Below are positions 164 to 10,178 of a DNA stretch of 64,000 nt, in pieces. Position 1 is the first letter of the stretch. Every line of letters begins with the position of its first letter. The notes under the pieces are model-generated. The model ran no database searches, had not been told where the DNA came from, and saw only the letters and a program-made list of their open reading frames with translations. A program made the translations under genes and the position numbers. This DNA is from Alienimonas chondri. GTDB taxonomy: Bacteria; Planctomycetota; Planctomycetia; Planctomycetales; Planctomycetaceae. The stretch covers positions 1-64,000 of the forward strand of contig NZ_WTPX01000005.1 in the NCBI RefSeq assembly GCF_013036045.1, read 5' to 3'.

Positions 164-1690
164 ATGGCAGTACAAGGCAAATCCACAGGCCTGACCGTCG
201 GGTTGATTATCGCGGTGGTGATCGCGTTGATCGCCACGGTCGCGGCGTTCCTGTTCTATCGGAACTACACCCAGAACGAGACCCGCTACCAGACGATTCA
301 GACCGAGAAGGACAACGTCCAACGGGTGAACGAAACCCTGCGGGCCGAGCGCGACGCGATCAAGACGTCTCTCGGTATCACCGCGTCGGACACCGGTTTG
401 CAGGACGAAGGCGCCGGCACCGTGCTGGGCGAGGCGAAAGCCAAGATCGCGGCCCTGAACACCGGGCAGGGGGAAACGAACATCGTCTCGGTCGCCGAGA
501 ATCTCTCCGCTCTGTTGGAGCAGGAACGCATCAAGACCGGCTCGCAAGCCCTCGATATCGCGGAGCTTCGCCGGCAGATCAATGCGTTGGAGAGCAAGTA
601 CAGCCAAGAAGCCCAGCAGTACAACGCCGCCCGCATGAATGCGTTGGCGGACAAAAACGACGTGCAGACCAGCGCCGACGAACGTGTTCAAGCCGAGCAG
701 GCCCGCCGTCAGGAGATCGAGGATCAGCTCGCCGCCACCAAAGCGGAGCTGGAGGAGACGAAGGAGCAGATGGCGAACCAGACCGACGCTCTGAACGAGC
801 AGATCACGGAATATCGTCTCACCAACACCCGCTTGATCCGCAAACTGGCGGAGATCGAGACTCGCTCCTTCACCAGCCCGGACGGCAAGATCGTCAACCT
901 GCAACGCAGCACCGACACGGTCTATCTGAACATCGGCAGCGCCCAGAACCTGCGGCCCGGCGTGACCTTCAGCGTTTACGATAAGGATCTCGTCGGCCCG
1001 ACCGGCGGCGACGCCAGCGCTTTGAAGGGTTCGATCGAAGTTCTGAGCGTGGATGAGCAGATCTCCGAGGCTCGCATCACCGAAGTCACGACGTTGGAAC
1101 CGCTCTCCGTCGGCGACCTGATCTTCAGCCCCGCCTGGTCGCCGGGCCGCAAGAGCACGTTTGCCTTCGTGGGGATGATCGATCTCGACGGCGACGGCAA
1201 CACCGCCGGCGAACGCGACCGCCTGCGTCGCATCCTAAATGACGCCGGCGCCGAGATCAGCGTGTACGTCGATGACGAAGGCAACTGGGTCGACGGCGAC
1301 GGCGACCCGGACACCAATCAGCCGTTGGATGTGAACACGGAAATGCTGGTTCTCGGCACGATCCCCGATCCCTCCGAAGTCTCCGACCCGGCTCGCAAAG
1401 CCGCCTACACGCGGATGCGTTTGGCTCGTGAAGAGATCCGGTCGCAAGCGGAGCGGAACGGCATCGCGGTCAAGACCCTCAAGACGTTCCTCGACACGAT
1501 GGGCGTCTCGACCACCCGTCGCCGGTTCGTCCCGGGCGACGACCCGGACTTCAATCTCCGCGGCGATCGCAACCGGCAGATCGATCCGGATCCGGGGTCC
1601 GGCACCAGCGGCCTGTTCAGTCCGAACCGCGGCCGACTGGGCAGCGAAATCGATCCGCAGCCCAGCACCCGCTTCAACCCCCAGCGTTAA
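164..1690 (+). CDS. Membrane-anchored coiled-coil protein, unknown function
   Basis: I do not recognise the family. The 508-residue product has one N-terminal membrane segment (about residues 10-32) behind a short Lys-containing head, so it is probably a single-pass inner-membrane protein with its bulk outside the cytoplasm. Residues 40-240 are Gln/Glu/Lys/Arg-rich with heptad-like spacing, consistent with a long coiled coil. A compact part follows (about 245-425) with beta-like stretches and an Asp/Gly-rich DLDGDG loop resembling calcium-binding loops, and a second Asp-rich stretch. The last 50 residues are Gly/Arg/Pro-rich and probably disordered. ATG at 164 is chosen over an in-frame TTG at 77 because the membrane segment then lies close to the N-terminus. 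The gene is followed by a good intrinsic terminator. Confidence 0.8.
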   Translation: MAVQGKSTGLTVGLIIAVVIALIATVAAFLFYRNYTQNETRYQTIQTEKDNVQRVNETLRAERDAIKTSLGITASDTGLQDEGAGTVLGEAKAKIAALNTGQGETNIVSVAENLSALLEQERIKTGSQALDIAELRRQINALESKYSQEAQQYNAARMNALADKNDVQTSADERVQAEQARRQEIEDQLAATKAELEETKEQMANQTDALNEQITEYRLTNTRLIRKLAEIETRSFTSPDGKIVNLQRSTDTVYLNIGSAQNLRPGVTFSVYDKDLVGPTGGDASALKGSIEVLSVDEQISEARITEVTTLEPLSVGDLIFSPAWSPGRKSTFAFVGMIDLDGDGNTAGERDRLRRILNDAGAEISVYVDDEGNWVDGDGDPDTNQPLDVNTEMLVLGTIPDPSEVSDPARKAAYTRMRLAREEIRSQAERNGIAVKTLKTFLDTMGVSTTRRRFVPGDDPDFNLRGDRNRQIDPDPGSGTSGLFSPNRGRLGSEIDPQPSTRFNPQR

Positions 1691-1715
1691 ACGACAAAGC
1701 GGCGTTCCGCGTCCG

Positions 1716-1749
1716 ACGCCCCGTCCGCATCAGGCGGCCGGGGCGTTTT
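1716..1749 (+). terminator. Intrinsic terminator after the coiled-coil gene
   Basis: The 8-base arms ACGCCCCG and CGGGGCGT pair perfectly, with further pairing inside the loop (CCGC with GCGG), and are followed by TTTT. The hairpin starts 25 bases after the plus-strand stop and overlaps the 3' end of the convergent GTPase gene, so it may also insulate the two genes from each other. Confidence 0.75.
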
Positions 1750-3661
1750 CATGGGCGGCGTCGGAAGGTGGTCGCTTGGCGCCCGCTCCGGCGACTGTGG
1801 TTCCCGCCAACCGATTGCGGGCGTCGCCGGCTTCCCCCGCGAGGCGATGGAGCCGATCGGCTCCGGCTGCCGCGCGATTGACCGCGGCGTCGAGCTTCGG
1901 AAACAGTCCCGCGGCCCCGTAGCCGCGGGCGCTGCGGCCGGCGGAGATGCTGCGGGCCAACTCGTTGACTTCGCGGTCCAAGCCGCGTCGCAGGCGCCGG
2001 CTGAACAGCATCACCAGCAGCCCCGCCCAGAGGCTGGCGAAGACGGCGCCCGCGAGCCAGTAATCGCCGCCGTAGAGCGCAGGATCTGCGGCGTCGCTCG
2101 CCTCGGCGTCGCCGAAGAGCAGCGGATACAGGAACGTGTCCCAGAAGAAGTTCTTCGCCGCGCGCAGCAGGATTACCGCCGGCAGGCTCATCAGCAGGAC
2201 CTCGTACCAGATCCGCACGACGGTGCGACTGTTCTTCGCCGCGAGCGACTTGATCAGCCCGTCGACCCGTCCGCGTACCCCTTCGAGGAACCGACCCTCC
2301 GCGGCGACCCCCTGATCGCGGATCTGTTCGTCGGTGAGCGTCAGCAATTCGCTCGGCAGACCGGCGTCCGAGGTGAATCCCTGGAGTCGGAAGCGGGCGT
2401 CACGTAATAAGCCGTCGTCCTGCCCGAACGCCCCGAGCTGATCGAGGCCGGCGTCCGCGGCGTTGCCGGCGTGGTACTCACGCAGCTTCTGCCCGGCCAT
2501 CGTGGCGCCGACCAGCGCCACCGCGGCGGCGTTCCTCGCTCGAAATAAGCTGGACGAGGTGATGTACCCGCCGATGCCGTTGTAGAACCGCAGGGCGATG
2601 CTGAACGGGCTGACGCCCCAATCGGTCGCCACCGCGTCGGCCAGTCGCCGCTCCCACACGCCGGGGTTGCCGAGCAGTTCCTCCCGCAAGCGACTCGTCA
2701 TCGCGGTGGTGAGGGCTTCGCGTTCTTCCGTCAGCTTCTCGCCGACGCGATCCAACGCCGGGCGCCGGGCGCGGACGTTGGCGTCGGCCCGCTCCAACGC
2801 TCCGTGCAGCAGGTCGAGCAGGTTGGCCCGCCGCACCGCAACCCGGGCGTGCTCGGAGAGTTCGGTCCGCAGCGTTTCCTGGAGACGGGCGAACTCGCCG
2901 GTGGGCAGCCGGCCGGCGTCGCGTTCCGCCTTCGCTCGGACGGAATCGACGAAGTAGAGATCCTCCGGCGACAGCTCGAATCGCTCGCCGAGCACCCGTC
3001 GCCAGTCCTCGCGGATATCGCCGTCTTCGGCGGCGTGCGTTTGCACGAACAGCAGCCGGCAACCGCGGGCCGCGTGGGCCAATTCATCCGCGACACGGGC
3101 GTTGCGGTATTTCTGCTGCGTGCTGACCACCAGCAGCACGTCGCAGTGCGGCAGCAGTTCGCGGAGCCGACCGAGGTTCGTCGCGGCGCCCTCGCCCTCG
3201 GCCTGGACCTCAGTGGTATCCGGGTCCGGGCAGTCGATAAGGATGAACTCCCGCAGCGCCCCGGCGTCGGCCCGCTTCACTCGCACGCGGTCCAGCGGGA
3301 GACCGAGCGGTTCGAGATCGGTGTCCGGGTGGGCGACGAGCGTCGGGGTGGTGGTGGTCGGACGCTGCTTACCCGGCCGGGCGACCTCCTCGCCGACCAG
3401 CGCGTTCACCAAGGTGCTCTTGCCGGTGCCGGTGCCGCCGAAGGTGGCGACGACCAGCGGCGCCTCCAATCGCACCCGGACCGCTTCCGCCCGCGACAAC
3501 ACCCGCCGCAGCAGCCCGCGGGCGTCCGCCAACGGTTCCCAACTCGCTGCGTCTCGTTCGGCGCCGGCCGCGTCCACCGGCTCCTCCGCCCACTCGCGGA
3601 CACGGCGGAGCAGCCCGTCGATGCGGGCCAACTGATCGAGGCGGTCGAGGTCGGGAGACAT
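1730..3661 (-). CDS. Dynamin-like/YfjP-type GTPase A with C-terminal membrane segments
   Basis: A large GTPase of 643 residues. Walker A/G1 is GGTGTGKST at about 75-83, a Thr-rich switch I lies near 102-106, and the G3 region reads LIDCPDPD near 141-148, so the usual DxPG is DxPD. The G4 position is degenerate (QTHAAED near 207), which leaves guanine specificity uncertain. A long helical region follows, then two hydrophobic segments (about 480-505 and 530-555) that could insert in the membrane, then a basic helical tail. This arrangement is typical of bacterial dynamin-like and YfjP/EngB-like membrane GTPases. ATG at 3661 is preferred over TTG at 3673. It lies 30 bases downstream of a second GTPase of identical length, so the two are probably co-transcribed and may act as a hetero-oligomer (inference). 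Confidence 0.8.
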   Translation of the reverse strand: MSPDLDRLDQLARIDGLLRRVREWAEEPVDAAGAERDAASWEPLADARGLLRRVLSRAEAVRVRLEAPLVVATFGGTGTGKSTLVNALVGEEVARPGKQRPTTTTPTLVAHPDTDLEPLGLPLDRVRVKRADAGALREFILIDCPDPDTTEVQAEGEGAATNLGRLRELLPHCDVLLVVSTQQKYRNARVADELAHAARGCRLLFVQTHAAEDGDIREDWRRVLGERFELSPEDLYFVDSVRAKAERDAGRLPTGEFARLQETLRTELSEHARVAVRRANLLDLLHGALERADANVRARRPALDRVGEKLTEEREALTTAMTSRLREELLGNPGVWERRLADAVATDWGVSPFSIALRFYNGIGGYITSSSLFRARNAAAVALVGATMAGQKLREYHAGNAADAGLDQLGAFGQDDGLLRDARFRLQGFTSDAGLPSELLTLTDEQIRDQGVAAEGRFLEGVRGRVDGLIKSLAAKNSRTVVRIWYEVLLMSLPAVILLRAAKNFFWDTFLYPLLFGDAEASDAADPALYGGDYWLAGAVFASLWAGLLVMLFSRRLRRGLDREVNELARSISAGRSARGYGAAGLFPKLDAAVNRAAAGADRLHRLAGEAGDARNRLAGTTVAGAGAKRPPSDAAHENAPAA

Positions 3662-3691
3662 GGGGCGATCCAAATGGCGAACGGGCGGGCG

Positions 3692-5623
3692 TCAGCCCCC
3701 GATGCGTGCGGGCGCGGAAGTCGACTCGACGGTCTGCGGCTCGCCGCTGGTCGCCTGCAACTCCTCGAGCGCGTCGCCGACGGCCGCGAACGCTGCGGAG
3801 TCGGGCAGCCCCGCCGCGTGCGTGACGTCGGTGACCAGCGGCCCCAGCAGCGCGTCCCGGACCCAGCGTTCGAGCCAGGCCCGGCGGCTCTCCGCGAAAC
3901 GGCGTTCGATCCGCGCGACCTTTGCATTGACCTTCATGGTCAATGTCCCGGCGCCCGCCCCCGCCGCCTCGCCCGCCGCGACCGCCGCTCCGCCCACGAG
4001 CGTGTCGGCCACCACGGTGATCCCCGCGGCGGCCATCTCTGTCCCGATCACCCCGGTTCCGAGCAATCCGACCGTCAACGCCGGGCGGCCCATCACCGCG
4101 GCGGCGTCCAGCGTTCGCAACCAGCGGCCCGCCCGAGGGTTGTTAACGAGCATCGCGTCCATCTCTTTCTGCACTAACTCCGCCAGTTCGCCGTGCAGAT
4201 CGCAGGCGGCGTGATCGGTGCGGAGCCGCTCCAGCAGCTCCGCCCGCGGCGAACCGCCCAAGACCTTGGCGAGGCGGGGGGCGAGAATCGGATCGGTTTC
4301 GCGAAGGCTTTCGAGTTGCGTGAATAATCGCTCGACGGCGCGGCGAAACAGCGCGAACTCATCCTTCGCATAGTTCTCCAGCGGGGGCTGAGCCGGGCCG
4401 CGGACCTGCCGGTTCAATGCCCGGAACGGTTGGGCGAGCAATCCGCCGACGGCGCCGTAGGCGTCCGCGACGGTTTTCGTCATCCCGGTGCGACGGCCGC
4501 GCCACCAGTCGCGAACTTCTTCGACCATCACCGACGCCGGCACCGGCGGCCACTTCGCCTTGCTGTCGGTCAATTCGCCCATCAGGTGCTCGCCGGCGGC
4601 GGCGAAGCGACTCGCGGCGTCACGGACCTCCGCCAGCCACGCCGGCACGCCGTCGGAGGGACTCGCCAGGCGATCGACGGCACCCGACAACGTCCGCAGC
4701 TTCACCTCGTCGAAGTGCAACTCGGAGAGCGCCGTCCGCAGGCTCTCGCCGCCTCGTTCCTCGCCCAAGCCGGACGCATGCGTCCGGCTTGGATCAGCGT
4801 CGTCCGCCGGCGGCCACGGTCGTTCCTGGAAGGAAAGTCGCAGGTCCGCGGCGGCGGCGGCATCGTGCGGAGCGAGAAACAGCAGGTCCGGCTCGATCCC
4901 CGTGCGTTCCGCGAACGTACCGACCCACGTCGGCCAGTATTCCTCGTCGCCGGGTAGGTGGACCTGATTGAACACGACGACGACCGCCGCGTCCGCCCCG
5001 TGCACGGCCGCGCCGCCGGCCTCTCTGAAGAACCGCACGACGGCGGCGTCGTTATATTTCTGCTCGGTCAGCACGGCCAGCAGCACGTCCGCGGCGGTGC
5101 GGATCTTCGCGGCCCGCGCCCAGTTCACGGGGGCGTCGCTGTCCACGTCCGGGGTGTCGAGCAGCAGCAGATTCGTCGGCACCACGTCGCTCTCCGCCCA
5201 GAAGAGCAGATCGCGGTCGTCCGCCCGCAGCGCCGCATCCGCGTCGTCGGCGTCGATGCGCACCGGGACGAAGCCGGGAAAGACCTCTTCGAGCCGATGA
5301 GTCTCGCTGAACCCCGTGGGGACTAGGCAGGTCGGATGCTTCGTCCCGCTGGCGAACTTGCTGCTCGAACTGGCCGCGTAACCGGCGAGGTGATTGAAAA
5401 TCAGCGACTTGCCGAGGTTCGTCCCGCCCACGACGGCCACCACCAGAAACGCTCCGCCGCCGCCCGGGCCGGGGAGTTGAGGCAGCAGCTTGCCGTGCAG
5501 CGTGTCGTACCACGCCCGCTCCGTGGTCGGCGGGACTTCCAGGACGCGGGCCTGCCGATCGAGTTCCGCGACGGAATCGGCCAAACGACGGGCTGCGGCG
5601 GCGAACTCCGCAAGATCGGCCAT
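3692..5623 (-). CDS. Dynamin-like GTPase B, partner of the downstream GTPase
   Basis: A 643-residue GTPase-fold protein. G1 is GGTNLGKS at 66-73, and the G3 region is LLDTPDVDSD at about 155-163, again DxPD in place of DxPG. The G4 candidate is VFNQVH, so the NKxD motif is not canonical. The N-terminal 45 residues are helical. The C-terminal third contains a Gly/Ala/Val-rich hydrophobic stretch (about 530-580) that could associate with membranes. ATG at 5623 gives a sensible N-terminus; an in-frame upstream start at 5749 would run through an inverted repeat and is rejected. The gene precedes GTPase A by 30 bases, and the two proteins share the G3 variant and length but little obvious sequence elsewhere. 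The cellular role is unknown; membrane remodelling is the family expectation. Confidence 0.78.
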   Translation of the reverse strand: MADLAEFAAAARRLADSVAELDRQARVLEVPPTTERAWYDTLHGKLLPQLPGPGGGGAFLVVAVVGGTNLGKSLIFNHLAGYAASSSSKFASGTKHPTCLVPTGFSETHRLEEVFPGFVPVRIDADDADAALRADDRDLLFWAESDVVPTNLLLLDTPDVDSDAPVNWARAAKIRTAADVLLAVLTEQKYNDAAVVRFFREAGGAAVHGADAAVVVVFNQVHLPGDEEYWPTWVGTFAERTGIEPDLLFLAPHDAAAAADLRLSFQERPWPPADDADPSRTHASGLGEERGGESLRTALSELHFDEVKLRTLSGAVDRLASPSDGVPAWLAEVRDAASRFAAAGEHLMGELTDSKAKWPPVPASVMVEEVRDWWRGRRTGMTKTVADAYGAVGGLLAQPFRALNRQVRGPAQPPLENYAKDEFALFRRAVERLFTQLESLRETDPILAPRLAKVLGGSPRAELLERLRTDHAACDLHGELAELVQKEMDAMLVNNPRAGRWLRTLDAAAVMGRPALTVGLLGTGVIGTEMAAAGITVVADTLVGGAAVAAGEAAGAGAGTLTMKVNAKVARIERRFAESRRAWLERWVRDALLGPLVTDVTHAAGLPDSAAFAAVGDALEELQATSGEPQTVESTSAPARIGG

Positions 5624-5699
5624 GGAGGACAGTGGAAGGGGAGGAAGTCGGCGGGAGCGGGAAGGTACGACGAAGGGCAGCGTCTGTCGAAGCGAGCGC

Positions 5700-5794
5700 G
5701 TTTCAGGTGAAAGGTTGAAGGTGGGGCGAGCGGCGAGTGCGGAGGGCACTTCAGAGTCGCGTCCCTTTCAACCTTCTTTCCTTCCACTTGAAAC
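5700..5794. repeat. Long imperfect inverted repeat in the gap before GTPase B
   Basis: The left arm 5700-5721 (GTTTCAGGTGAAAGG followed by TTGAAGG) can pair with the right arm 5764-5794 (CCTTTCAA, then CTT-rich bases, then CCTTCCACTTGAAAC). The arms are nested in the correct order, with one G-U, one mismatch and a bulge, around a GC-rich 42-base loop. The arms are clearly poorer in GC than the surrounding genes. The right arm ends six bases from the stop codon of the zinc-ribbon gene. It could be a transcript-processing hairpin or terminator, or a small non-autonomous palindromic element; I cannot tell which. Confidence 0.5.
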
Positions 5795-5799
5795 CATTC

Positions 5800-6903
5800 T
5801 CAAGCCCATTGGCGCTTCAACTCCTCCAGCTCCTCGGTCCGGCCGGTCTCCTCCAGCAACGGCATGACCCGCTGATACGCCGGGGCGTAGTTCGAACAGT
5901 CGGACAGGCTGGCAAGAAAGGCGTCGGCCGCGCGGTTCAGATCGCCCTCGCCGGCCAGCGCCATTCCCAGGTTGTACTTCACCCCGGCGCCGGCCCCGAG
6001 TCGTTCGAGGATCGCGCGGTACTTGGCGATCGCTGCATCGAACTTCCCGGCTCGGGCCGCTTTGTTGCCGGCATCCAACCCCGCGTACGGGCCGCCCGTG
6101 AGGCCGCTGCCGTAGGTGCGAGCGAGTTGGGTGAGGGCGACCGGCACGCCCAGCACAAAGGGCGTATTGAGGACCAGCATTTTCCAGGCGTCCCCCCGCA
6201 TACAAGCCGGGCAGCGCCAGGTGGTCCGGGTTCGCCAACCGTAAACCACCAGCAGGAAGTAGAAGTAGAAGACGGTGAATTTCCGCGGCGCCGCATAGTA
6301 GCCGCAGTCGTCGCAGACCTTGTGGGCTTTCTCCCAGCCGGGCGGGTCGGCGGCGGTCCGTTCGTTCCACAGCGTGTCGCAGAACGAACAGAAGACCTGC
6401 GGCGACTTCGGCATATCGGACAGCACCACCGTTGCATCGCAGTGGGGACACCGAGCGGTACGAAACGCGGCCCCGCGTCCCTCTTTCTCCAACTCTTTCC
6501 GGTGCCCCTCCGCCCAGACGCCGCTGCGGGCGATATCCACGGCGGCCTTCAACGACTTCGCCGTCGCTCCGCCGGAGACCGTCAGGCCGAGCGTCGCCAG
6601 CTGGATACCCCCGTCGGCCGCCGGTTCGTCGAACTCGTCGTCCTGCTCATCCCCGCTCGGCCCCGTCGCCTCCGGGATCGCGAGGAAGAGCAATTTTTCA
6701 CGCGCCTGCACGTCGAGCAACGCCGGCGCCGGCAGAACGAGATCGTCCAGCGTGAGCGTCTCCCCGTCCCACGAACCTTTCTTTCGGAAGATCCCGGTGG
6801 GCTGCCCCTGCTCGTTCAGAAACTGAAATTTGAACCGGAGCGGTTCGGCGGGGGAGGGCGGCACGGCACAATCCAGCGACGAGCGAAATGGAACGTTCTG
6901 CAA
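5800..6903 (-). CDS. Zinc-ribbon, membrane and TPR-like protein, unknown function
   Basis: A 367-residue protein that I cannot assign to a named family. After about 145 residues without landmarks it has four CxxC pairs: C152/C155 with C172/C175 form one zinc ribbon, and C197/C200 with C231/C234 a second, which is split by a hydrophobic aromatic segment (about 208-222). A second hydrophobic segment lies near 243-262. The last 100 residues resemble tetratricopeptide helices (AGKFDAAIAKYRAIL, then a second copy). The start is TTG at 6903, with no nearby ATG. It lies between the PIN-PhoH gene (83 bases upstream) and the two GTPase genes on the same strand. A membrane-tethered scaffold is plausible but inferred. 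Confidence 0.7.
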   Translation of the reverse strand: MQNVPFRSSLDCAVPPSPAEPLRFKFQFLNEQGQPTGIFRKKGSWDGETLTLDDLVLPAPALLDVQAREKLLFLAIPEATGPSGDEQDDEFDEPAADGGIQLATLGLTVSGGATAKSLKAAVDIARSGVWAEGHRKELEKEGRGAAFRTARCPHCDATVVLSDMPKSPQVFCSFCDTLWNERTAADPPGWEKAHKVCDDCGYYAAPRKFTVFYFYFLLVVYGWRTRTTWRCPACMRGDAWKMLVLNTPFVLGVPVALTQLARTYGSGLTGGPYAGLDAGNKAARAGKFDAAIAKYRAILERLGAGAGVKYNLGMALAGEGDLNRAADAFLASLSDCSNYAPAYQRVMPLLEETGRTEELEELKRQWA

Positions 6904-6986
6904 AGTATCGCCCCTGCCGCAGACGTTCGAGGCGGCCCGGAGCGTCGGTGGGGGCGCCGCCCGGGGCGAGGCCGGCGAGGCGGGGC

Positions 6987-8561
6987 TTAAAGCAGATCGC
7001 TGGCGAGTTCAGCCAGTTCGCTGCGTTCGCCTTTCTCCAGCGTGACGTGGGCGTACAGGGGTTGGCCCGTCATCCGGTGAATCAGGTGCGACAGGCCGTT
7101 GGAGAGACCGTCGAGGTAGGGGTGGTCGATCTGCTTCACGTCGCCGGTGAGGACGATTTTCGTGCCTTCGCCGGCCCGGGTGACGATCGTTTTCACCTCG
7201 TGCGGCGTGAGGTTCTGCGCTTCGTCGATGATGAAATAAATCCGCGGCAGGCTGCGTCCGCGGATATAAGCCAGCGGGCTGATCTCCAGCTTGCCGGACT
7301 CCAGCATCAACGGAATACGCTTGGCCTCCTCGCTCTCGTCGCCCAGGGCATGGCGGATGACGGAGAGGTTGTCGTGCAGCGGCTGCATATACGGGTCGAG
7401 CTTCGCCCCGATATCGCCCGGTAGAAAACCCAGGTCGCGGTTCGACAGCGGTACGACCGGCCGGGCTAAGAGAATTTGCCGATATTTCGTCCGCTGGGCG
7501 AGCGCCGCGGCCAACGCCAGCAACGTTTTGCCGCTGCCGGCCTTGCCGGTGAGAGTCACCAGCCGCACGTCGTCATCCAATAGGGCCCGGATTGCGAAGC
7601 TCTGCTCCGCGTTGCGGGGGGTGATGCCGGAGGCCGACGCCTTCTCCACCCGATGAAACTCGCGCGGGCCGGGGAGATAGGTCGCGAGAGCGGACTTCGA
7701 CCCATTGCGGAGGATGAAGTTTTCGTTGGGAATCGGATCGACGACCTCCGGCAGTTCGTCGATCGGCACGCTGCCGGCGCCGGTATAGAAGCGATCCACC
7801 GTCGCCGTCGGCATGTGCTGGACGATTCGCTTCCCCGTATAGAGCGCCTCGTGGCTCTCCACCTTGTCGGCCTCCCAATCCTGAGCGATCAGGCCCAGCG
7901 CCTTGGCCTTCATGCGGAGGTTCGTGTCTTTGGTGACGAGCACGACGATCCGACGGCTGCCCTCGGCCCGATGCACGGCCATCGCCGCCGCGAGGATGCG
8001 GTGATCCGGCGTGTCTTCGGAGAACACGCCCTTGATCGCGGGGTCGTCCCGCCGCCCCATCACCACCCGCACCCGTCCCAACGGCGAGCCGTCGCCGGCG
8101 GTTCCCAGCCTGATGCCGGCCGTCGACAGCAGTTCGCCGGTCAATCCATCGAGTTCACGCAGGAACCGACGGGCGTGGAAGTGCTTTTCCTCGGCCCCCT
8201 TTTTGAACCGATCGAGCTCCTCCAGCACCGTCATGGGCACGGCGACGTCATGCTCCGCGAAGCTCCGCAGGCACTGCGAATCGTGCAGGACGACATTGGT
8301 ATCGAGCACGAACGTTTTCGGCACCGGCCCGGTGTCCGGCTGACGGACGTCGTCCTGATCGCCGGTCCGTGGCTGAACCGGAGCATGGGCGCCCGGTGGC
8401 TGGGGGGAAGAGGAACCGGAGTCGCCGTCGCCGCTCTCCAAGCCCTCTCCGAAGTCCAAAGACGGTAACGGCCGGTCCTCGGCGACGAGGCGATCCGATG
8501 GGATCGCGGCATCCGGGGCGACCGGCGAGGGAGGGGCGGCCAGAACGGACATGGACGGCAT
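6987..8561 (-). CDS. PIN domain-PhoH-type ATPase
   Basis: A 524-residue cytoplasmic protein of the YlaK/PhoH2-like class, which couples a PIN nuclease domain to a PhoH helicase-like ATPase and is associated with RNA metabolism. A disordered Pro/Ser-rich N-terminus (1-80) is followed by the PIN domain (about 82-235), with the acidic [11 protein letters not shown] motif near 84-94 and later acidic residues (EELDRF, TKDTN). The PhoH domain has Walker A GKAGSGKT at 339-346 and Walker [10 protein letters not shown] near 441-449, followed by a TGD motif. ATG at 8561 is used; ATG at 8552 is equally possible. It heads the minus-strand group that continues into the zinc-ribbon protein and the GTPases. 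The 285 bases upstream are shared with the divergent tadA gene. Confidence 0.92.
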
Positions 8562-8717
8562 CCGGGAATCGGGCGTCGGGGGAGACGAACGTCGGCGAGG
8601 CGAACCCTAGCTTTTCGCGAGACGACCACCGACCCCGTTTCGCGATCACGCGTTGTCAGGAAGCGATGAAGAAGGGACGGATCGCCGTGGCAAAATCCGC
8701 ACGAACGGTCCGCTCGC

Positions 8718-8737
8718 ACGTTGCCCAACTGCAACGT
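8718..8737. promoter_or_regulatory. Inverted repeat in the divergent phoH/tadA intergenic region
   Basis: ACGTTGC, six bases, GCAACGT: perfect 7-base arms in the 285-base gap (8562-8846) between two divergent genes. Position and symmetry fit a regulator binding site for either gene, but no further copy was seen in the window and no clear -35/-10 pair was found nearby. I see nothing else recognisable in this gap. Confidence 0.3.
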
Positions 8738-8846
8738 CCCCATCCTCTCCGGCGCCGTCCGCTCGACCGATCGGCGTGACCTAGGTTCTCAAACCGGCCC
8801 CTCCCCTTTCGCCGGTGTCGCCGCTTCCCCGATCTCCCGCGCTGCT

Positions 8847-10178
8847 ATGTCCGCCGCCCGCACCGCCGCCCGCCCCGGCCGCACCCCGACCGGCCGCCCC
8901 GGCGAGCAGATGGATTTCGAGGATCTGAAACGTCTAATCCATGGCAAGCTGGTCGATAAACTCGACCTGTCCCGCCTGGGCGATCTCGAAGGGGACACGC
9001 TTCGCCGCGAGATTCGTCTCGTCGTTGAGCACCTCTGCGACACCGAGAACCCGCTGCTGAACCGCGGAGAGCGGGAACGCCTGGTCGAAGAGGTTCTCGA
9101 CGAGACCTTCGGGTTTGGTCCGCTCGAGATCCTCCTCAAGGAAGAGGGGATCGCGGACATCATGATCAACGGCCCGAAGTGTATTTATATTGAGAAGGAC
9201 GGGCGCATCCTCAAAAGCCCGGTCACCTTCCGGGACAACGACCATTTGTTGCAGATCCTCGATCGGATCGTCTCCAAGGTCGGCCGTCGGATCGACGAAA
9301 CCAGCCCGATGTGCGACGCCCGCCTGCCGGACGGCTCTCGCGTCAACGCGATTATCGCGCCGCTCGCGCTCGACGGGGCGGCCATCACGATTCGGCGGTT
9401 CGGTTCCAACCCGCTGACGCTGGAAGACTTGCTGCGATTCGGCGCCTTTACGCCGGAGATGGTCATGTTGCTCGAAGGAGCGATGAAGGCCCGGCTCAAC
9501 GTGCTCGTCTCGGGAGGAACCGGCTCCGGTAAAACGACGCTGCTCAATACGTTGTCCAGCTTTATTCAGCCGGACCAACGAATTATCACGATCGAAGACG
9601 CCGCGGAACTTCAGCTTCAGCAACCGCATACCCTGCGGTTGGAAACGCGTCCGCCGAACATCGAGGGGAAGGGGGCCGTCACGGCGACCGACCTCGTGAA
9701 GAACGCCCTGCGAATGCGACCGGACCGAATCATTATCGGCGAGTGTCGCGGCCCGGAAGCCCTCGACATGCTGCAAGCGATGAACACCGGTCACGAAGGC
9801 TCGCTGACCACCATTCACGCCAACACCCCCCGGGACGCCGTCAGCCGACTCGAGACGATGATCTCCATGGGCGGGATCGAACTGCCCATCCGGGCGCTGC
9901 GCAATCAATTCGCCAGTGCCGTCGACCTGATTATTCAAGCAAACCGCCTCCAAGGCGGACCGCGTAAGGTGACGGACATCACTGAGGTGGTCGGTATGGA
10001 GGGCGACACGATCGTGATGCAGAAGATTTTTGAATTCGTGCAGGACGGAATCGGCGAGGACGGCAAAGCGTTCGGGCACTTCGAGAGTACCGGAGTCCGC
10101 CCCGCGTTTATGGATCGACTCGAATCGGCGGGCGTGAAGCTGCCGCACAACCTGTTCGCCGCACGGCGCCTCGGGTGA
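8847..10178 (+). CDS. tadA: Tad/CpaF-type secretion ATPase
   Basis: The hexameric ATPase that powers assembly of Flp/Tad pili or related secretion. The 443-residue product has the CpaF family order: a helical N-terminal domain (about 20-130), then Walker [11 protein letters not shown] at 222-231, an Asp box with acidic [11 protein letters not shown], Walker [10 protein letters not shown] near 293-301, and the His-containing [14 protein letters not shown] motif. ATG at 8847 is chosen because an upstream start at 8721 would add 42 Ser/Pro-rich residues unlike the family. tadB and tadC follow on the same strand at spacings of 99 and 58 bases. No pilin, TadZ, RcpA or TadE-type gene is visible nearby, so the rest of the machine must be encoded elsewhere. 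Confidence 0.95.

Follow-up and report, generated by a model that had tools for sequence, protein, structure and literature searches.

A conserved pair of dynamin-like GTPases with a DxPD G3 motif in Alienimonas chondri and other Planctomycetota

Two adjacent genes of the planctomycete Alienimonas chondri, here called A and B, probably encode a heteromeric bacterial dynamin-like protein (DLP) that remodels membranes, in which B would be the anchored subunit and A its partner. The genes lie in positions 1 to 64,000 of contig NZ_WTPX01000005.1 (assembly GCF_013036045.1), a stretch referred to below as the window. An original prediction made from the same DNA had described two co-directional GTPases of 643 residues each, 30 bases apart, with Asp in place of Gly in the G3 motif, degenerate G4 motifs, and hydrophobic C-terminal regions. 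All of this was reproduced: the coordinates agree, both genes being on the minus strand and both proteins having 643 residues when counted from ATG; G3 reads DTPD in A and DCPD in B, the G4 positions read NQVH and THAA, and hydropathy gives one Gly/Ala-rich stretch in A and two transmembrane (TM)-like stretches in B. The equal length is a coincidence, since the orthologues vary (about 546–700 residues among relatives, 634 and 638 in the same genus). The two proteins are paralogous, with 28% identity over 202 residues of their G domains (E 2e-9), and the A-family and B-family profiles align with E 7e-41.

Distribution and pairing in Planctomycetota

The phylum survey covered 199 Planctomycetota genomes. 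B was found in full or nearly full length in 40 of them, and each of these 40 also carries A; one genome (G112) has A with no recognisable B. In the family to which the host of the window belongs, 24 of 25 genomes carry B and 22 carry A, the missing cases being confined to fragmented assemblies. A precedes B at all 56 loci where both genes were readable (a few of these loci represent the same stretch more than once, as overlapping copies), the nearest B start being no more than 40 bases from the A stop in 46 and the stop and start overlapping by 4 or 1 base in 34. In about half of the genomes of this family A and B are separated, for example by 1.2 Mb in the one-contig genome G005, and both are still retained, which fits the expectation for subunits of one complex. 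By these sequence comparisons the pair itself is real and old.

Additional copies were also observed. That the pair can be duplicated as a whole is seen in genome G122, where it is complete at two loci (L112 and L113) on separate contigs. Genomes G102 (L115, L207) and G170 (L120, L203) possess an A-B pair together with an extra lone A-type gene. The lone genes form a distinct A subclade with the P-loop GGANVGKS or GGTNVGKS and the G3 motif DSPDFD.

Fold and family assignment

Structure models of A and B were built from shallow alignments and are good in the G domain only, with a mean predicted local distance difference test (pLDDT) value of 57 for A and 55 for B. The best Foldseek matches of both models in the PDB belong to the dynamin superfamily. 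The B model matched Mfn1 with E 3.6e-10 in Foldseek and with Z 18.7 over 272 residues at a root-mean-square deviation (rmsd) of 7.1 in VIA-align, while the A model matched IniA best (E 3.9e-7), followed by Fzo1 (E 1.1e-6). In VIA-align the A model gave Z 17 with both Mfn1 and Fzo1 over model residues 1–629, the Mfn1 alignment (Z 17.3, 322 residues, rmsd 6.2) taking in the N- and C-terminal helices. At the sequence level the B-family profile matches Cj-DLP1 (3e-9), Mfn1 (6e-8), and BDLP (9e-7). Comparison with the Pfam profiles Dynamin_N and MMR_HSR1, as proposed with the original prediction, gave matches of both to most family members, those to Dynamin_N comprising 18 of 21 B and 13 of 22 A proteins at E<=1e-3. 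The window B scores 28.4 bits against Dynamin_N with its frame (cut-off 27) and 24.6 bits as a single protein; the window A has no Dynamin_N match. A candidate for a second dynamin in the same genome, the other Dynamin_N match, turned out to be Der/EngA. Judged from the models, A and B belong to the dynamin superfamily, with a predicted mitofusin/BDLP-like fold that has a helical bundle around the G domain.

Several known systems are comparable. Bacterial DLPs are mostly encoded by operon pairs, and in Campylobacter the Cj-DLP1/2 heterotetramer tethers membranes (PMC6104087). Cj-DLP1 and Cj-DLP2 resemble A and B in being encoded by neighbouring genes and in their profile and fold matches; however, they are joined via a Campylobacter-specific assembly domain (PMC6104087), and no orthology is indicated. 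Mycobacterial IniA, the best Foldseek match of A, forms with IniC an actinobacterial DLP pair encoded in one operon, but this is the separate inducible operon iniBAC (PMC6715688). Cyanobacterial BDLP and mitofusin/Fzo1 share the fold of G domain, helical bundle, and hydrophobic segment. By its G3, and in the window also by both G4 motifs, the A-B pair is set apart from the canonical bacterial DLPs of BDLP/Cj-DLP type, which are recognised by DxPG in G3 and [NT]KxD in G4.

The DxPD signature and the asymmetry of the G motifs

DxPD was read in all 89 distinct full-length planctomycetal A and B proteins obtained with phmmer, the 90th match being Der, and A proteins outside the first search pattern carry it as well (DCPDMTT, DCPDLTA, DAPDIST). 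In contrast, 12 single-gene dynamins of Planctomycetota have DTPG together with a different P-loop, mostly GExxxGKS. This difference marks the G3 Asp, on the sequences compared, as a family signature and not a local change. A sequencing error or local change in G3 is likewise ruled out by the universality of DxPD in the planctomycetal A/B set; a G3 of DxPG in close homologues had been named in advance as one of two findings able to overturn the module idea, and no A or B homologue checked in the phylum reads DxPG. The replacement of Gly by Asp should alter the contact of switch II with the gamma phosphate.

Both families retain the P-loop Lys/Ser, the G3 Asp, and the switch-I Thr (30 of 31 A-type proteins). 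Among planctomycetal B proteins 17 of 20 have the G4 Asp, as do 12 of 12 products of the second gene of a similar actinobacterial pair described below, but it is present in only 4 of 19 planctomycetal A proteins and in none of 12 products of the actinobacterial first gene. In the host's own family the G4 of B has drifted (THAA, THAD, TRAD). Together with two TM-like segments in B versus one stretch in A, this asymmetry gives B the appearance of the anchored GTPase and A that of an altered partner.

A further step would be to regard A as a nucleotide-dead pseudo-GTPase that serves as a scaffold, B alone hydrolysing GTP. The loss of the G4 Asp from most A proteins in both phyla and the replacement of the G3 Gly speak for it; nevertheless, it is doubtful, as the retained P-loop, switch-I, and G3 residues argue for nucleotide binding by A and the same G3 alteration is carried by B.

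Two other protein types were met in the survey. The A proteins of L085–L088, L090, and L098, from two families of the same class, represent a distinct subtype with WDCPDMTTW or WDCPDLTA and the P-loop GGAGxGKS. The products of L184–L196 are single-gene BDLP-like proteins, mostly with GExxxGKS and DTPGTNS as opposed to the DxPD of A and B, which are widespread in other Planctomycetota families and occur mostly in genomes with no detected A-B pair. The weak single-gene matches of the phylum search were, where read, DTPG dynamins.

Kinship with the actinobacterial tandem pair

Among the matches listed in a scan of named genomes, an A-B-like tandem was present in Arthrobacter, Georgenia, and an Actinomycetaceae metagenome-assembled genome; a broader survey showed it in 13 of 60 genomes of Actinomycetota, and it was also met in Nonomuraea (11.85-Mb record). 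Its first gene encodes a protein with GSTGAGKS, D[AT]PDxDS, and one hydrophobic segment, and the second a protein with GATGSGKS, DLPDxDS, and two TM segments. At 2 of the 13 loci G3 deviates in one or both genes; in the pairs L181 and L182 it reads DMIDVDS with DTPPPG and DLPPLE with DLPDMDS, respectively.

The identity between the window proteins and the actinobacterial pair is about 20–25%. In the G-domain tree, which left out IniA and IniC, A groups with the products of the actinobacterial first gene and B with those of the second one (support 100/99), and from these matching clades the duplication would probably be older than the split of the phyla, or else the two genes moved together. 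A separate duplication in each phylum is disfavoured by 32 log units.

According to the published description, Streptomyces DynA and DynB are partners, DynB has two TM segments and its homologues are frequent in actinobacteria, and in sporulation septa the two proteins stabilise the FtsZ rings (PMC8748795). This description fits the actinobacterial tandem and, with it, the A-B pair, the match to DynA/DynB being by published description and not by sequence. Common to A-B and the actinobacterial tandem are two neighbouring co-directional GTPase genes in a fixed, shared order with a 4-base overlap, DxPD in G3 at most actinobacterial loci, a single hydrophobic segment and a missing G4 Asp in the first protein, and two TM segments with the G4 Asp in the second. 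They differ in that most planctomycetal A proteins have Asn in the P-loop, both G4 motifs are degenerate in the window pair, and FtsZ is not detectable in the planctomycetal host. Of the original interpretation, a dynamin-like pair with a shared DxPD stands; the view that it does not resemble a well-described pair is less accurate, as its nearest known kin look like the actinobacterial DynA/DynB tandem.

FtsZ and the proposed mechanism

No FtsZ match above the cut-off was obtained in the 199 Planctomycetota genomes, while 13 of 14 control genomes gave one; the 8 weak matches among the 199 include no A-B carrier. As FtsZ is not detectable in the carriers, the planctomycetal pair is unlikely to work through it, and for the same reason A-B is classed as a related pair and not as the same divisome component as DynA/DynB.

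A likely course of action can be proposed. A and B would each bind nucleotide and pair through their G domains and helical bundles, B would anchor the complex in the membrane via its two TM-like segments, the hydrophobic stretch of A may dip into the membrane, and cycles of G-domain dimerisation could tether or constrict the bilayer. The pair would assemble as a heteromer and remodel membranes, and it may have a role at the division site or bud neck, at the invaginated inner membrane, or in membrane repair.

Several observations weigh against such a heteromeric remodeller or against its kinship. The window B does not have a proper G4, and with the G3 Gly replaced in both A and B hydrolysis of GTP is not to be assumed. 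Both models are weak outside the G domain, and adjacency of the genes is lost in about half of the host's family. Separate duplications in the two phyla are not firmly rejected by the approximately unbiased (AU) test (p 0.066), and orthology to Streptomyces DynA/DynB rests on description. Rather unlikely is the most far-reaching version of the proposal, namely, that A-B is a machine by which Planctomycetota constrict or divide membranes independently of FtsZ in budding, division, or inner-membrane invagination, that it shares an ancestral pair with DynA/DynB, and that the DxPD switch II sets a different GTPase cycle.

The locus and its neighbours

The features of the locus are collected in Table 1. 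No sigma-70-like promoter was found at 1500–8900 of the window, and terminator-like matches there are near chance level.

Table 1. Features of the A-B locus in window coordinates
Feature	Position	Strand	Remarks
Gene A, 643 aa, DynA-type partner GTPase	3692..5623	minus	G1 GGTNLGKS, G3 DTPDVDSD, degenerate G4
G1 (P-loop) of A, GGTNLGKS	5405..5428	minus	Asn is a mark of the A family
G3 of A, DTPDVDS	5138..5158	minus	
G4 position of A, NQVH	4958..4969	minus	Guanine-specifying Asp absent, as in most A proteins
Gly/Ala-rich hydrophobic stretch of A	3944..4102	minus	Possible membrane paddle, predicted from hydropathy
Spacer from A stop to B start, 30 bases	3662..3691	minus	4-base stop/start overlap here in many relatives
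Gene B, 643 aa, DynB-type membrane GTPase	1730..3661	minus	G1 GGTGTGKS, G3 DCPDPDTTE, two TM segments
G1 (P-loop) of B, GGTGTGKS	3416..3439	minus	
G3 of B, DCPDPDT	3215..3235	minus	
G4 position of B, THAA	3029..3040	minus	Degenerate in the host's family; NKxD in most other B proteins
TM-like segment 1 of B	2162..2230	minus	Predicted from hydropathy
TM-like segment 2 of B	1994..2065	minus	Predicted from hydropathy

Upstream of the pair, also on the minus strand, stand a PhoH2-like (PIN-PhoH) gene at 8561–6987 and a Zn-ribbon/TPR gene at 6903–5800, in agreement with the original prediction. On the plus strand, an open reading frame at 8721–10178, divergent from the PhoH gene, reads as a CpaF/TadA-type secretion ATPase as judged by sequence, and a predicted membrane-anchored coiled-coil protein is encoded at 77–1690, convergent with B and 39 bases from its stop.

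When all neighbours at 40 loci were clustered, no third gene recurred consistently beside A and B. This result bears on the possibility that the two proteins constitute a conflict or immunity GTPase system of LeoABC-, GIMAP-, or IRG-like kind, acting on membranes in infection or envelope damage. Window protein P0001 does match the LeoA and LeoBC models weakly, but only about 30–65 residues around the P-loop align and no match to LeoABC or other defence models extends beyond this region; GIMAP2 and IRG structures also appear in the Foldseek list, though further down, the top folds being mitofusin, IniA, and BDLP. With near-universal presence in the host's family and no recurring neighbours of any kind as well, this explanation is improbable.

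Assignment to the ribosome-assembly GTPases of Era/Der type could be suggested by MMR_HSR1, which is matched more often than any other Pfam profile (21 of 21 B and 21 of 22 A proteins). It is very improbable, as this match spans the G domain only, no RNA-binding domain was found in Pfam and NCBIfam scans, the helical C-terminal halves with hydrophobic segments match mitofusin and Fzo1, and a separate Der is encoded in the same genome.

The conserved membrane module of PhoH, Zn-ribbon/TPR, and the two GTPases that had originally been proposed is rejected: all four genes stand together and co-directionally only in the window genome and in genome G001 of the same genus, and elsewhere homologues of PhoH and the Zn-ribbon/TPR protein are either missing or encoded on different contigs or at a distance of hundreds of kb. 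Near-full-length homologues of the Zn-ribbon/TPR protein (P0003) occur in a few members of the family, on contigs with neither A nor B. Since the quartet is limited to the genus and no third neighbour recurs, the module consists of two genes and not four; a shared transcript of the four in this genus is possible.

Significance of the A-B pair

Paired bacterial dynamins are already known. New, as far as could be found, are a pair that spans the phylum in a lineage lacking FtsZ, its DxPD signature, the unequal retention of the G4 Asp in A and B, and the actinobacterial tie. The A-B pair is not named by any family of Pfam, NCBIfam, or PADLOC, and no published description of it was met in a literature search of incomplete coverage.

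In summary, the probable dynamin-like A-B pair bears on how Planctomycetota that lack FtsZ divide and shape their invaginated membranes, and, being conserved and mitofusin-like, it offers a concrete gene pair for genetics and localisation. Its DxPD/G4 pattern departs from the dynamin GTPase cycle in a way that can be tested. Comparison with Actinomycetota, where such pairs support FtsZ-based division, suggests that FtsZ is dispensable for such a pair.

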